From positions 124,001 to 188,000 of the forward strand of contig RXIF01000006.1 in the NCBI GenBank assembly GCA_004212075.1: 64,000 nucleotides of DNA. The letters are read 5' to 3'. The stretch comes from Candidatus Methanoliparum thermophilum. Its GTDB lineage: Archaea > Halobacteriota > Methanoliparia > Methanoliparales > Methanoliparaceae. Below the pieces are notes generated by a model. The model saw only the letters and a program-made list of their open reading frames with translations. It ran no database searches and was not told the DNA's origin. The translations under genes and the position numbers were made by a program. This document shows, piece after piece, positions 34,075 to 49,974 of the stretch (its first letter is position 1; each line of letters opens with the position of its first letter).

Positions 34075-34126
34075 TGCAGAACTACGTTCCTGCATCACAA
34101 GTTTTCATCACAAATCTTTGATTTTT
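34075..34126. repeat. decayed paired palindrome between HMG-CoA synthase and UbiD genes
   Basis: Two imperfect hairpins: TGCAGAAC-TAC-GTTCCTGCA (34075-34094) and CACAAATC-TTT-GATTTTTA (34109-34126). The second starts with the same CACAAATC arm as the intact elements in cofE and iorA and encodes the final residues KIKDL and stop of HMG-CoA synthase. Spacing between the hairpins has grown to 14 bp. Confidence 0.5.
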
Positions 34127-35409
34127 AATTCCTCATATTCAGATATAGGCAGCTTTTCCTGATCTTCTATCTTTTTTATCAGACCGATCTTACTGACAAT
34201 GGATGCATATTCCTCAGCAAGAGTACCATAGAAGACCAACGAACCCGACCCACTACCATAAGCACCGAACCCTATCTTCTTGCCAATTTCTAATCTCTTT
34301 TTACGATACTGTAGCTCAAGCAGAGAAGATAATGATAAAAAAATAGATGCAGTATAAGTATTGCCTATATTTGTTGGAGCAAACAACGAAGATTCTACTT
34401 TATTTTTATATAAATCAGCAAATTCTGGCAGATTAAATAATTTTTTCCTTATCGCATAGTCTTCATCCATCAACTCTTTATTAGAAAAGACATCTTCTAT
34501 CTTGTCCTGCACATTCTCGACCAGCCCGTTCGATCTTATACCTAATTCTTTACAAATCCTTTCCCATCGTTCTGTTCCTCGTAACTCATGCCTGAAAAGG
34601 AATGCTAGCCCATGTTTTGTAATCTTGGGATAAGGGGTATGGAAGACCAAATAATCAAAAAAATCTATTAGGACAGAACTTCGGTCTTTTTCTTCGTATT
34701 TTTTCTTGAACCTATCAAACGCAGACCTCATCGCAAAAAGATAAGAGAAATTCGATAATTCTCCGTTGACTATAGGAGTTCTTTTACCAAAAGGACGGTA
34801 AAAATCGTTGTTATCTTGTGTAAAGACGCCAAGACATGAAAAATCAAGTCCTATCAGTCGTGGATTATCCTTGACAAGCATAGCTACTGCCCCAGCTCCT
34901 TGTGTAGGTTCTCCACTGCTATTAACATCGTATCTTGCCTCATCTGCACATACAACTATCCCCACTTTACCATCGTTCATGTCGGATAATATCCAGTTGC
35001 ATGTATCATAAAGCGAATAAGACCCGCCTATACATGCAAACTTGTTCTCTAATCCCTGAATATGGTTGAGCTTGAACTCCTGACCTAACTTTTCCTCCAT
35101 TCTACCAAGCACGAAACATACCAGGGGTTTTGATTCATCCATAGAACTCTCTGTGGCTGTATAAATTCGCCCTATATCCTTCGGGTTTAGATCGTTCTTA
35201 CGAATAAGATCAATTATAGCATCGGCTGCCAATGAGTCCACCGTCTCGTCTGTAAGAATGGCAATCCTCTTAACACCTATGCCTTCAGTATACTTTTCTG
35301 GTGGTATCCCACGAAGATCTGCCAATTCTCTCGTATCTATGTATCTCTTAGGGATGGCAATAGATATATCATCTATGCCAACAACACGCTTTTTATTATT
35401 GATAATCAT
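34108..35409 (-). CDS. mvaS: hydroxymethylglutaryl-CoA synthase (bacterial/eukaryotic MvaS type)
   Basis: Condenses acetyl-CoA with acetoacetyl-CoA for mevalonate synthesis. 433 aa with the catalytic triad in place: E87 in TATESS, C126 in ENKFACIGGS and H257 in VFHTPYPK, plus SGEPTQGAGAVAMLV (about 165-179) and GAYGSGSGSLVFYG near the C-terminus. It resembles MvaS-type enzymes rather than the short archaeal HMGCS, and has about 45 extra residues before the NIGNTYTAS segment. It is upstream of the UbiD gene, supporting an isoprenoid operon. Divergent from hicBA. Confidence 0.93.
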   Translation of the reverse strand: MIINNKKRVVGIDDISIAIPKRYIDTRELADLRGIPPEKYTEGIGVKRIAILTDETVDSLAADAIIDLIRKNDLNPKDIGRIYTATESSMDESKPLVCFVLGRMEEKLGQEFKLNHIQGLENKFACIGGSYSLYDTCNWILSDMNDGKVGIVVCADEARYDVNSSGEPTQGAGAVAMLVKDNPRLIGLDFSCLGVFTQDNNDFYRPFGKRTPIVNGELSNFSYLFAMRSAFDRFKKKYEEKDRSSVLIDFFDYLVFHTPYPKITKHGLAFLFRHELRGTERWERICKELGIRSNGLVENVQDKIEDVFSNKELMDEDYAIRKKLFNLPEFADLYKNKVESSLFAPTNIGNTYTASIFLSLSSLLELQYRKKRLEIGKKIGFGAYGSGSGSLVFYGTLAEEYASIVSKIGLIKKIEDQEKLPISEYEELKIKDL

Positions 35410-36053: not shown

Positions 36054-36989
36054 TTATGTAATATCAGATTGATTATTAAAAAAATCCTTGATTTTTGATA
36101 CCTTTTTTAGAGCTTTCTTTATATAATCGGTAGATTCATCCCGATATATTGTTTTTATTCCTCTTGCATCCTCTTTAAGGATAGATAATCCTCGGATCAA
36201 CACCGCAGGCGTCATCCAATCTCCTTCACCCATCAATATATTTGCCAAACCAGCCAGTTCATCAACGATAGCTTCTTCAGAGACTCTGAGTATTCTTCCG
36301 AAGATATCTTCCTTTCCCTTCCAATCTCTTATTGGATCGAGATTATATGCACCGATTGCAAAACCAACTTGTCCTCTTCTAAACGGTCTTCCGTTCGTGT
36401 CGGATATGATTACACCCACTTTTTTATCTTCTATTGCAGCTATCCGCTCCCCAATCTTTCTAGCACTTAAATCCGGATCCTTAGGGAGTAATATGACAGA
36501 ACCATCTTCTATATTAGATCTATCTACGCCAGCATTTATGCAGATATTGCCACATTTTGCCTTGACAAGAAAAATAGGCGGATATTCTATTATTATTTCT
36601 TCTGTCTCGTCTAATATTGCCTGTATAAATCTTGGATCGTCATCACAAATCTTCGATTTGTGAGCTACGAATCTTTGATTCGTAACATTTTTTTTTCTTG
36701 AAATCTCTATAGCCTTATCAGTAGGTTTGATATTTTTCAAAAGCCTGGTTCTTCCCTCAGATTTAGATACGGCAGTATGTGCTACGACTATTATGTCATT
36801 ATCCTCTATACCTGTACCCATCTTTTTAATCTCATCGACCAAAAGTTCTCCAATATCCATTCCTTCTTTTATTATTGGTAATTTTATAGAACTGGCATAA
36901 AGTGAAAACAGACGTTCTTCACTACTGGTTGAGAAATCGCAAGGAGGTGCAGGAACCTTGGTTCTGCGTTTTGATGCAAAGATCATCAT
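36054..36989 (-). CDS. cofE: coenzyme F420-0:L-glutamate ligase CofE
   Basis: Adds gamma-linked glutamates to F420-0. The core begins at about residue 32 (SIKLPIIKEGMDIGELLVDEI). Ligand segments: VVAHTAVSKSEGR, KAKCGNICINAGVDRSN, VIISDTNGRPFRRGQVGFAIG and ANILMGEGDW. Residues 102-116 (TNQRFVAHKSKICD region) are encoded by a 41-bp paired palindrome, an insertion relative to the family as I remember it. The first 30 residues (MMIFASKRRTKVPAPPCDF...) are also an unusual extension; a later start is possible. It is separate from the cofGHC locus. Confidence 0.9.
   Translation of the reverse strand: MMIFASKRRTKVPAPPCDFSTSSEERLFSLYASSIKLPIIKEGMDIGELLVDEIKKMGTGIEDNDIIVVAHTAVSKSEGRTRLLKNIKPTDKAIEISRKKNVTNQRFVAHKSKICDDDPRFIQAILDETEEIIIEYPPIFLVKAKCGNICINAGVDRSNIEDGSVILLPKDPDLSARKIGERIAAIEDKKVGVIISDTNGRPFRRGQVGFAIGAYNLDPIRDWKGKEDIFGRILRVSEEAIVDELAGLANILMGEGDWMTPAVLIRGLSILKEDARGIKTIYRDESTDYIKKALKKVSKIKDFFNNQSDIT
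36644..36684 (-). repeat. 41-bp paired-palindrome element inside cofE
   Basis: Two perfect 19-bp hairpins, each 8-bp stem and 3-nt loop, 3 bp apart: CACAAATC-TTC-GATTTGTG at 36644-36662 and TACGAATC-TTT-GATTCGTA at 36666-36684. On the coding strand the order is TACGAATC hairpin, GCT, CACAAATC hairpin, identical in layout to the copy in iorA (41032-41072). It is translated in frame as part of CofE. Confidence 0.8.
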
Positions 36990-37153: not shown

Positions 37154-37217
37154 AAAAGATTTATTAACGAAGAAGTTTATATACTTTGTTAGTGTATTAC
37201 CTATAAGGGATTGAAAT
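37154..37217 (+). CRISPR. CRISPR leader plus single repeat, copy 2 (inverted relative to copy 1)
   Basis: AAAAG at 37154 through ...GGGATTGAAAT at 37217. The 64 bp match the reverse complement of 32658-32721 with three substitutions. It includes a TATA-like AAGTTTATATAC (37173-37184) and one repeat (37188-37217) with the same deviant first nine bases as the leader-proximal repeat of copy 1. No second repeat follows before the end of the VWA gene, so this is an empty array. Confidence 0.75.
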
Positions 37218-40484: not shown

Positions 40485-42305
40485 TTGAAAAAGGAGGAGA
40501 TAATAATCAAAAAATTTCTTATGGGCAACGAAGCGATAGCACAGGGATGCTTGGAGGCTGGAATAGATTTCGCAACAGGATATCCTGGAACTCCATCATC
40601 CGAGATAATCACATCATTAAGCATCTCTAATGAGAGAAATGTATATGTGGAGTGGTCAGTTAATGAAAAAGTCGCATTAGAAAACGCTATAGGTGCCGCA
40701 TGGTGTGGATTAAGATCCATATGTGTAATGAAACACGTTGGATTGAATGTAGCCGCAGACCCGTTCATGTCATTGGCGTACACTGGAGTAAAAGGTGGTT
40801 TTGTTATTATAGTTACAGACGATCCGTTTCCACATAGTTCACAAAACGAGCAGGATTCTAGAAGGTATGCTCATGCAGCAAAAATTCCGTGTTTGGATCC
40901 TGCAACACCGCAAGAAGCGAAAGATATGGTAAAATACGCTTTTGAATTATCCGAAAAATACGAGATTCCTGTAATGTTGAGACCAACTACAAGGATTTGT
41001 CATGCTAGATCCGACATAGAGGTCGAGAAGTTTCAAATCGAAGATTTGAAGCCCACAAATCAAAGATTTGTGAAGATACCAAAAGAGAAAAGAGTAGGTA
41101 GATTCTTTAAAGATAGAGACCGGTGGGTGCTAGTACCATCAAACGCTAAGATACTCCATAGAGAACTTCAGATAAAACAGAAAAAGATAATAGAAGATCT
41201 AAACGGGACGCCATTTAATAAAAGAGTTAAAAATATAAAAGAGACCAAGATAGCAGTTGTATCTGGTGGCGTAGCAAGCTGTTATGTCAAAGAGCTTATT
41301 CCAAACGATATACCTTTCTTTAAAATTGGTACGTATCCCGTAGATATCGACCGATTGGGAGAATTTACTAAAAATTACGAAAAAATTCTCGTTATAGAAG
41401 AATTGGATCCCATTTTAGAAGAAATAGTAAAAATGTCCACATGTTCGACTGTGTTAGGAAAATATACGGGAGATGTACCGTTTTATGGTGAATTAAACCA
41501 AAATATAGTCTATGATATTCTTATTAAGAACGGTATAACCCCTGTTGTTAAATATGATCTTAAAAAACCAGTTGAGGGGCTACCTGCCAGGCCACCAATC
41601 CTCTGTGCAGGATGCCCTCATCGTTCGATATTATATCTAATCGAGAAAATTTTTAAAAATGGGATCTATACGAGTGATATAGGTTGTTATACTTTAAGCC
41701 CTTTCTCCGTGGATACATGCCTATGCATGGGTGCCTCAATAACAATCGGCAGTGGAATCAGCCATTGTGATAAAAGAGACGTAGTTGCAACGATAGGTGA
41801 CTCTACATTTATGCATACCGGGATACCAGGATTGATAAATGCGGTATATAATAATGCAAATATCTTGATAGTGATTCTTGATAATAGGACAACCGCAATG
41901 ACAGGGCATCAACCGACAGCGGGAACAGGACAAAATATACAGGGAGAGTCGAAGGAGTTATCATTAGAAAAAATTTGCCAAGCTTGCGGTGCGGATTTCG
42001 TTGAGACGGTAGATCCGTTCGATATCAACCTATCTAAAAAAATACTCGAGCGAGCCAAAAAAGAAAAAGGAGTAAGAGTGATAATCGCACGACATCCTTG
42101 CTATATGATAGAGAGAAAACAAAACGTCGAAAAAGCATATTATGAGATAGACGTAAAGAGATGCACTAAATGTGGAGATTGTTTGGATTACGGCTGCCCT
42201 GCTATTGAACTATACGATATAAAACCGATAATAAACGATCTATGCACAGGATGTGGTGTATGTTCTGATTTATGCAGAAATGGAGCAATAAGGAGGATAA
42301 AATGA
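40485..42305 (+). CDS. iorA: indolepyruvate:ferredoxin oxidoreductase alpha subunit
   Basis: Oxidatively decarboxylates aryl pyruvates (or runs in reverse) with CoA and ferredoxin. 606 aa: pyrimidine domain with FATGYPGTPSSEI, TPP motif GDSTFMHTGIPGLINAVYN, and two C-terminal ferredoxin clusters CTKCGDCLDYGCP and CTGCGVCSDLCR. The open frame begins with TTG at 40485, but GGAGG at 40493-40497 points to initiation at an ATC codon (40506), giving the family start (I/M)KKFLMGNEA. Residues 183-196 derive from a paired palindrome (41032-41072). Confidence 0.93.
   Translation: MKKEEIIIKKFLMGNEAIAQGCLEAGIDFATGYPGTPSSEIITSLSISNERNVYVEWSVNEKVALENAIGAAWCGLRSICVMKHVGLNVAADPFMSLAYTGVKGGFVIIVTDDPFPHSSQNEQDSRRYAHAAKIPCLDPATPQEAKDMVKYAFELSEKYEIPVMLRPTTRICHARSDIEVEKFQIEDLKPTNQRFVKIPKEKRVGRFFKDRDRWVLVPSNAKILHRELQIKQKKIIEDLNGTPFNKRVKNIKETKIAVVSGGVASCYVKELIPNDIPFFKIGTYPVDIDRLGEFTKNYEKILVIEELDPILEEIVKMSTCSTVLGKYTGDVPFYGELNQNIVYDILIKNGITPVVKYDLKKPVEGLPARPPILCAGCPHRSILYLIEKIFKNGIYTSDIGCYTLSPFSVDTCLCMGASITIGSGISHCDKRDVVATIGDSTFMHTGIPGLINAVYNNANILIVILDNRTTAMTGHQPTAGTGQNIQGESKELSLEKICQACGADFVETVDPFDINLSKKILERAKKEKGVRVIIARHPCYMIERKQNVEKAYYEIDVKRCTKCGDCLDYGCPAIELYDIKPIINDLCTGCGVCSDLCRNGAIRRIK
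41032..41072 (+). repeat. 41-bp paired-palindrome element inside iorA
   Basis: Two perfect 19-bp hairpins (8-3-8): TTCAAATC-GAA-GATTTGAA at 41032-41050 and CACAAATC-AAA-GATTTGTG at 41054-41072, separated by GCC. Same layout, same orientation to the gene and same second hairpin arm as the cofE copy. In frame, encoding FQIEDLKPTNQRFV; the peptide TNQRFV also occurs in CofE from its copy. Confidence 0.8.
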
Positions 42306-48499: not shown

Positions 48500-48669
48500 A
48501 ATAAATTAATTAAGCACCCTTTCATATATATAGTTTCCTATTACAACACTATTTTATCCTTATTTTATAATTGTATGAATATTATTAACCTACAAAGGAT
48601 AATAATTTATACAATTTCTTTAAAACAGTAGGGTAAACCTACACTGTACAGTCCAGCCTTGTGCTGTTG

Positions 48670-48704
48670 CAAATCGAAGATTCGAAAAGAACCGAAAGGT
48701 TTTC
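48670..48704. repeat. decayed paired palindrome
   Basis: CAAATC-GAA-GATTCG (about 48670-48685) followed by GAAAAGAACC-GAA-AGGTTTTC (48684-48704). The AATC-GAA-GATT core and the tandem layout resemble the elements in cofE and iorA, but both stems are imperfect. It lies at the 3' end of the TctA-like gene. Confidence 0.35.
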
Positions 48705-49974
48705 AAAGTATGCCGAAATGCATCAAGATTACTGGGATGATAATACATGCCATGGCGTTTGTCTTCTTGACGTTCATCGATTGGATGATTAATCCGATGG
48801 ATATAGATAATATAAATAACAAAATTCCGTTTATTCCCGTAAAAAGGAAGATCATACCGCTTAAAAAGATTATAATGAAGTAGTTGAGCAAATTATAATT
48901 GATTTTTGTAAAAATGCTTGAAATAGAAGGGGATAAATAATATAAAAAGATAAAAGAGAGGATAGACACAATCACAGAAGATATCAATAGTAACAAGAAT
49001 TGGTCAAAAGAGATTAATCCTATCATATAATTCAAAGAGTTTATAGTACCACTCCTTGCTATTCCTAAGAGATAAAAGAAGAGGAGACAGTAGATCGCAT
49101 TGGCAGTATTGACGCTTGATAAAGAGATTATATAATCTTTATCTCCACCTTTTGTGAAGAGACTTGCAATGACTGTTGCAATACCAGAACTCATCCCAGG
49201 AAGCCAAGAGACTAAAGATCCCGATATGGTGCCTATGAACGAGTCTTTAAGTATCATACTCGGTTTGTGAGAGATCTCTCTAAAGGTTTGTTCAGGTATT
49301 TTTGGCTTTTTTTTAAGGCTAACTATGATAAGAGGAGTCCCAAATAACCCTGTCAGTAAAGGAAACAAAAAAGATGATGGTATGGGGATCAAAGGGATAA
49401 AAATATTCTGATATTTATATGCAAAAGTACCTAATAATCCAGAAAGGAGTATTGAGATCAATGCAAAGATCTTTTTTTTGTTTTTAGAGAAAGAAAACAT
49501 ACCTGATCCTGGTAACAGATCTTCTCGTTCAGTAAAGATCATAAATAGCAGTATCAAAACGAGTAAAAAAGGGGTTATCTCATCGACAGTTCTATATAAC
49601 ATTAAAAACAAGAGAGCGAAGATAGGCATAAGCAAAAACGATAAATGTATGGCTAAAGCGCTCCCAACCGCTGATAGTCTTATTACTTCGATGCTCCTCC
49701 CCTCTAAGAGTAATTTGTGTGAAGGAAGAACGGCTATGGCTGTCTCTTCGTCTGGTGCTCCTATAAAAACAGATGGGATTATATTAATGAAAGTGTTTGT
49801 TATGTAGCTGGAGAATAGAATTATTGCCGTGTAAAAAGTAGGTATTGGAAAAAGAGGGGAAAGACTTGAGAGAACCAGTGCGATACTATTTACGTGGATT
49901 CCTGGAAGCAATCCGGTAAATATTCCAAGTAGAAAACCTATCAAAATAGATATTAATAATAGGATGATATCCAC
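48703..49974 (-). CDS. TctA/DUF112-like polytopic membrane protein
   Basis: 423 aa with about 10-12 transmembrane helices. The N-terminal GFLLGIFTGLLPGIHVNSIALVL and the internal FIGTISGSLVSWLPGMSSGIATVIAS are the two inverted LPG repeats of the tripartite tricarboxylate transporter large subunit fold. Archaeal stand-alone members (COG1784) have no TctB/TctC partners, as here. Likely a carboxylate or other small-molecule carrier; substrate unknown. Divergent from endA with only 47 bp to its preferred start. Confidence 0.8.
   Translation of the reverse strand: MDIILLLISILIGFLLGIFTGLLPGIHVNSIALVLSSLSPLFPIPTFYTAIILFSSYITNTFINIIPSVFIGAPDEETAIAVLPSHKLLLEGRSIEVIRLSAVGSALAIHLSFLLMPIFALLFLMLYRTVDEITPFLLVLILLFMIFTEREDLLPGSGMFSFSKNKKKIFALISILLSGLLGTFAYKYQNIFIPLIPIPSSFLFPLLTGLFGTPLIIVSLKKKPKIPEQTFREISHKPSMILKDSFIGTISGSLVSWLPGMSSGIATVIASLFTKGGDKDYIISLSSVNTANAIYCLLFFYLLGIARSGTINSLNYMIGLISFDQFLLLLISSVIVSILSFIFLYYLSPSISSIFTKINYNLLNYFIIIFLSGMIFLFTGINGILLFILSISIGLIIQSMNVKKTNAMACIIIPVILMHFGIL

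Follow-up and report, generated by a model that had tools for sequence, protein, structure and literature searches.

Introduction

The palindromic elements of Rickettsia (RPE) and Wolbachia are short, occur both in and between genes, including conserved metabolic genes, and are inserted in frame so that a conserved peptide is added in exposed or unstructured segments of the host protein (PMC3767692, PMC10969869, PMC2229807). The target duplication of RPE is given as '?' (PMC2229807), and how coding palindromes spread and are maintained is a long-standing question from Rickettsia. Palindromic repeats with coding potential, some of them fused into protein genes, have also been described in the archaeon Methanocaldococcus jannaschii (Suyama et al. 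2005, as cited in PMC2229807 and PMC2996958).

Here we describe a 43-bp twin-hairpin element in cofE of an oil-degrading archaeon, many of whose genes carry the same kind of insert. The cofE feature is interpreted as a member of a family of palindromic elements that are very short, non-autonomous and transposon-like (probability ca. 0.9). The evidence for mobility is unusually complete for coding palindromes.

Results

Twin-hairpin elements in cofE and iorA

The genome analysed (G000; 1.26 Mb, 12 contigs) belongs to a member of Ca. Methanoliparia, and the window was a stretch of 64,000 nucleotides, C2:124001-188000, to which coordinates without a contig name refer. As a first-pass annotation had stated, cofE contains two perfect hairpins 3 bp apart, CACAAATC-TTC-GATTTGTG (36644-36662) and TACGAATC-TTT-GATTCGTA (36666-36684), which are joined by the linker AGC and traversed by the open reading frame (ORF) without a stop (Table 1). 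The interval that it had given, 36644-36684, holds both hairpins but is slightly too narrow, the true unit being 43 bp plus a 2-bp duplication. On the coding strand the element reads TTACGAATC AAA GATTCGTA GC TCACAAATC GAA GATTTGTGA, and the duplicated dinucleotide is TG.

When CofE was aligned with that of a genome of the same genus (G001) and 10 other relatives, 15 extra residues, NVTNQRFVAHKSKIC, were present in G000 only, with colinear flanks; G001 (83-84% identical) lacked them. The insertion that had been predicted is therefore present, with a length of 15 residues (43-bp element plus 2-bp duplication) instead of about 14. Since the net gain is 45 bp, the reading frame is preserved. In a model of CofE (closest solved structure, 2phn), the insert fell between two helices (91-107 and 119-127), where model confidence was lower (pLDDT ca. 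57-62). The added residues would form a loop that is probably flexible and tolerated by the enzyme.

The first 30 residues of the model, derived from another repeat, were also of low confidence. At 36903-36967, a longer intergenic-type repeat (the GGAGGTGCAGGAACC...GTTCTGC family), which was also found at G000:C3:70259-70323, encodes the N terminus predicted for CofE, RRTKVPAPPCDFSTSSEERLFSL. Which codon is the true start of cofE is uncertain.

A second hairpin pair was located in iorA at 41032-41072 (+), where the element is read as KFQIEDLKPTNQRFV. The recurrence in iorA had been noted in the first-pass annotation, and the layout, the orientation to the coding strand and the CACAAATC arm were indeed common to both copies; however, the reading frames differ, the element starting at the second codon position in cofE and at the first in iorA. 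The shared orientation did not extend to the family, in which genic copies face both ways.

Table 1 Features of the two element-bearing genes in the window.
Feature	Position	Strand	Remarks
Twin-hairpin element in cofE (43 bp)	36643..36685	-	Missing from G001 and all other aligned relatives; net +45 bp
Target-site duplication at cofE, left copy (CA on + strand)	36641..36642	.	
Target-site duplication at cofE, right copy (CA on + strand)	36686..36687	.	
cofE, coenzyme F420-0:L-glutamate ligase (host gene)	36054..36989	-	NCBIfam NF009809 and TIGR01916 above cut-off
Twin-hairpin element in iorA (43 bp, second copy, forward)	41031..41073	+	15 residues missing from five relatives
Target-site duplication at iorA, left copy (AG)	41029..41030	.	
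Target-site duplication at iorA, right copy (AG)	41074..41075	.	
iorA, indolepyruvate ferredoxin oxidoreductase alpha subunit (host gene)	40485..42305	+	TIGR03336, 768.5 bits

Size and architecture of the family

The core AATCNNNGATT occurred 129 times in the genome versus 25 times for the reversed control, that is, about five times more often. Of the 114 perfect hairpins whose loop was 3 nt and whose arms measured 8 bp or more, 41 carried this core, and adjacent double hairpins numbered 65 as compared with 15 in a Markov control. A chance origin of the hairpin pairs is excluded. The further copies for which a genome search had been proposed were found with a family profile built from 39 double hairpins, which returned ca. 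54 non-overlapping family loci, 44 of them full-length.

The unit is [T-8-3-8]-GC-[T-8-3-8]-A, a 43-bp sequence of two tandem hairpins spaced 22 bp apart, with the consensus T(T/C)ACRAATC-nnn-GATTYGTR-GC-T(C/T)ACRAATC-nnn-GATTYGTGA. Its ends are 9-bp terminal inverted repeats, TYACRAATC ... GATTYGTRA. The arms varied among copies (TACGAATC, CACAAATC, TTCAAATC, TGCAAATC, CTCGAATC, TACGAAGC, CACAAACC and others), and Watson-Crick pairing was kept at 525 of 544 arm positions, an upper estimate because the copies were chosen partly by pairing. Two or three pair types occurred at many positions, and the selection of the set does not account for the change of both pairing partners.

Single-hairpin derivatives of 20 bp with mismatched arms were observed at G000:C6:58406, C1:280570 and C7:49732. 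These single-unit derivatives, situated between CAT repeats, look like the outcome of recombination between the two hairpins with loss of one 22-bp unit.

Related fragments were seen at two sites of the window. At 34077-34126, part of the longer repeat together with a half palindrome lies at the 3' end of an HMG-CoA synthase-like ORF (34108-35409, -) and supplies its last residues, ELKIKDL; at 48640-48710, a half palindrome belongs to another composite repeat fragment (CAAATCGAAGATTCGAAAAGAACC). An isolated sequence at 37188-37217 resembled the CRISPR direct repeat family RF01315, with a score of 29.5 bits against a cut-off of 37 bits. Lone GGGATTGAAA motifs similar to it occur elsewhere in the genome, two of them near the element C3:167597.

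Target-site duplication and empty sites

Exact 2-bp direct repeats flanked 29 of 34 intact copies, a set picked by hairpin quality, while 2000 shuffles gave a mean of 8.8 and a maximum of 16. Outside the longer repeats the figure was 22 of 26 (shuffles: mean 7.3, maximum 14). The duplicated dinucleotides were TG, TA, CA, AG, CT, AC and TT, mostly of the YR type (TA, TG, CA). In an offset scan, the flanking 2-mers agreed best at an element length of 43 bp. A 42-bp element with a 3-bp duplication was also considered and rejected, as a position-wise test showed that the first base was always A; because this invariant A at the element end carries no information, the unit was defined as 43 bp with a 2-bp duplication.

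DNA comparison with G001 revealed empty sites that were shorter by a net 45 bp, for example GAAGAGATAATTAAA in G001 versus GAAGAGATA[43 bp]TAATTAAA at C3:77006. Within the genome itself, a longer intergenic repeat was found both empty and filled at two positions, again with a difference of 45 bp (GAGGTGCAGG versus GAGGTG[43 bp]TGCAGG, and AACAAATGTTCTTC versus CAAATG[43 bp]TGTTCTTC). Copies have thus inserted, with a 2-bp target duplication, where close relatives or paralogous repeats have an empty site.

Insertions in other genes

Apart from CofE and IorA, which were assigned with NCBIfam, host proteins were named by reading their sequences and not by family search. Alignment with relatives showed exact gains of 15 residues in a thymidylate kinase (at two places), a Mut7-C family protein, IorA, a secretion-type ATPase and a CobN-like protein. 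A ThyA-like protein gained 16 residues instead of 15 and an RqcH-like protein showed a net gain of ca. 12 residues in the alignment, so the length of some copies has changed. An element was also found near the N terminus of the HMG-CoA reductase of Ca. Methanolliviera. One twin-hairpin element forms part of a larger, composite in-frame insertion of ca. 50 residues in the mevalonate kinase of G001 (L180 433-1656).

These alignments bear on the possibility that the extra peptide of CofE is ancestral, or a functional insertion specific to the lineage, that relatives have lost it and that the palindrome is a coincidence. A length difference of 15 residues would by itself be compatible with loss. 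However, the peptide is missing from the same-genus genome as well as from all 10 other aligned relatives, the elements in mevalonate kinase occupy two different positions in G001 and Ca. Methanolliviera, and the DNA unit recurs, with target duplications, at intergenic sites and in unrelated genes. The unrelated host genes already speak against this reading, which is refuted and retains practically no probability.

Reading frame and position in genes

On each strand of the consensus, one of the three frames is free of stops. All 14 copies judged gene-internal lay in an open frame (random-phase probability ca. 3e-5, open frames being counted per copy), and none of the family loci clearly broke the frame of a validated gene. 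From this conservation of frame, the host genes are probably translated through the insert, which would add 15 residues. Copies in other phases or positions were probably purged by selection.

The frame argues against an insert that stays in the gene but is kept out of the protein, either excised from the RNA like an intron or passed over by the ribosome. The twin hairpin could plausibly fold in RNA, and mobile, hairpin-rich inserts that are bypassed are known in coding genes, namely the 'byp' elements of Magnusiomyces mitochondrial genes (PMC6649704). Bypass or splicing would require neither an open frame nor a length that is a multiple of three, yet the 14 genic copies are all open. Moreover, when the 45 bp were removed in silico, the ORFs that the copies interrupt proved to be cut mostly within ca. 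10 codons of their end. To our knowledge, no archaeal bypass system of such a kind exists, and we regard this explanation as highly improbable. More of the ORF extended beyond the site at C2:3986, where the copy lies in a longer repeat, and at C7:1960, where it is degenerate; both host ORFs are putative.

Many copies on C2, C3 and C5 (e.g. C3:66820, C3:77012, C3:79691 and C5:88395) are situated close to ORF 3' ends, at a distance of at most ca. 10 codons, and contribute a new stop codon.

The majority of copies fall between genes, and several are found at gene 3' ends, where terminators act, as would be expected if the elements were domesticated signals (REP-like binding, termination or nucleoid sites) and the genic copies by-products. 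Against such a role, neither a GTAG-type REP signature nor a Y1/RAYT transposase was found in the host genome, the element matched no Rfam family, and the positions are not conserved for the copies checked against G001. A signalling function is accordingly given little credence, and insertion as a mobile element remains the preferred reading.

Distribution and age

In a scan of 60 relatives, the double-hairpin pattern was present in the five genomes of the own family and in none beyond it. When one genome per species was scanned (85,462 species), matches were obtained in Ca. Methanolliviera hydrocarbonicum, Ca. Methanolliviera sp. GoM_oil and the MAG UBA8915. A looser linker pattern retrieved eight Methanoliparia contigs and three bacterial singletons that were unrelated in sequence, and a strict linker pattern gave zero matches across the genome collection. 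Among the genomes scanned, the family was found in Methanoliparia MAGs only. A viral contig with a similar twin hairpin was set aside (51% G+C, no other similarity seen).

No orthologous copy was shared by G000 and G001 when the G000 copies were sought in G001 and the placeable G001 copies in G000, which argues for recent activity.

Discussion

Proposed mode of mobilisation

The simplest reading of the boundaries and duplications is that a transposase acting in trans recognises the hairpin ends and makes a 2-bp staggered cut. The element would most likely confer no benefit on its host and persist as selfish DNA. No Y1, DDE_Tnp_1 or rve transposase was found in the host genome when these three Pfam families were searched (genome 86% complete). 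DDE_Tnp_1 proteins occur in four relatives, and the ends were not matched.

If copies spread as hairpins of single-stranded DNA, or through template switching when DNA is replicated, none of these transposases would be needed, and hairpin-templated correction would explain how the arms vary widely between copies and are still paired; the 20-bp derivatives also fit the loss of one 22-bp unit between repeats. On the other hand, the exact and varied 2-bp duplications together with the precise empty sites point to integration at a staggered cut, and we consider this mode of spread unlikely. A variant of the transposase reading holds that the elements form a minimal class of transposable DNA adapted to coding sequence, whose mobilising enzyme reads the double-hairpin shape and not a fixed sequence. 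One third of genic insertions would then be survivable, because the total is 45 bp and each strand has one open frame, and shape would be what the enzyme reads, because the arms vary freely yet are always paired. This variant is speculative, and we lean against it.

CofE, Tmk, mevalonate kinase and other Methanoliparia enzymes probably carry extra loops that automated annotation would take as real features. In Methanoliparia the element boundaries and the duplication can be seen, as can empty sites, both within one genome and in relatives, and independent insertions that struck the same essential genes repeatedly; both the transposition mechanism and the tolerance of the proteins thereby become directly testable.

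Comparison with known systems

The first-pass annotation had regarded the family as undescribed and as an archaeal instance of palindromes inserted in coding sequence. The idea is not new for archaea: the M. jannaschii palindromes are likewise archaeal and protein-coding. As far as the pattern scan goes, they would belong to a different sequence family, M. jannaschii giving no match to the twin-hairpin pattern in the whole-collection scan. As for the sequence family, no description was found in the literature covered, including the Methanoliparia genome paper (PMC6703427), which is weak evidence given that subscription papers mostly fell outside that coverage.

Unlike REP/RAYT elements, which are extragenic and associated with a Y1 transposase, the Methanoliparia element has copies inside genes, and no Y1_Tnp was found in G000-G002. 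It resembles miniature inverted-repeat elements (MITEs) in having terminal inverted repeats, a target-site duplication, many copies and no coding capacity of its own, and differs from typical MITEs in being shorter, in being a tandem of two hairpins and in that an autonomous parent was not found. In the double-hairpin elements of fungal mitochondrial DNA, the mobile unit likewise consists of two adjacent hairpins; those elements, however, reside in organelle genomes and are unrelated in sequence.

RPE, single palindromes of ca. 100-150 bp in Rickettsiales, differ from the Methanoliparia element, which is 43 bp long, comprises two hairpins, occurs in Ca. Methanoliparia only and has a clear 2-bp target duplication; no Rickettsia or Wolbachia match to the twin-hairpin pattern was obtained in the whole-collection scan. 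As with RPE, genic and intergenic copies coexist in one genome (14 copies judged gene-internal among the 54 loci, 44 of them full-length), and the elements are inserted in frame in conserved genes relative to their orthologues. The analogy with in-frame selfish palindromes in Rickettsia housekeeping genes, drawn at the outset, thus suits the behaviour of the family, and the comparison largely holds: the Methanoliparia element appears to work like the Rickettsia palindromic elements, as non-autonomous, MITE-like selfish DNA whose product is probably a tolerated loop.
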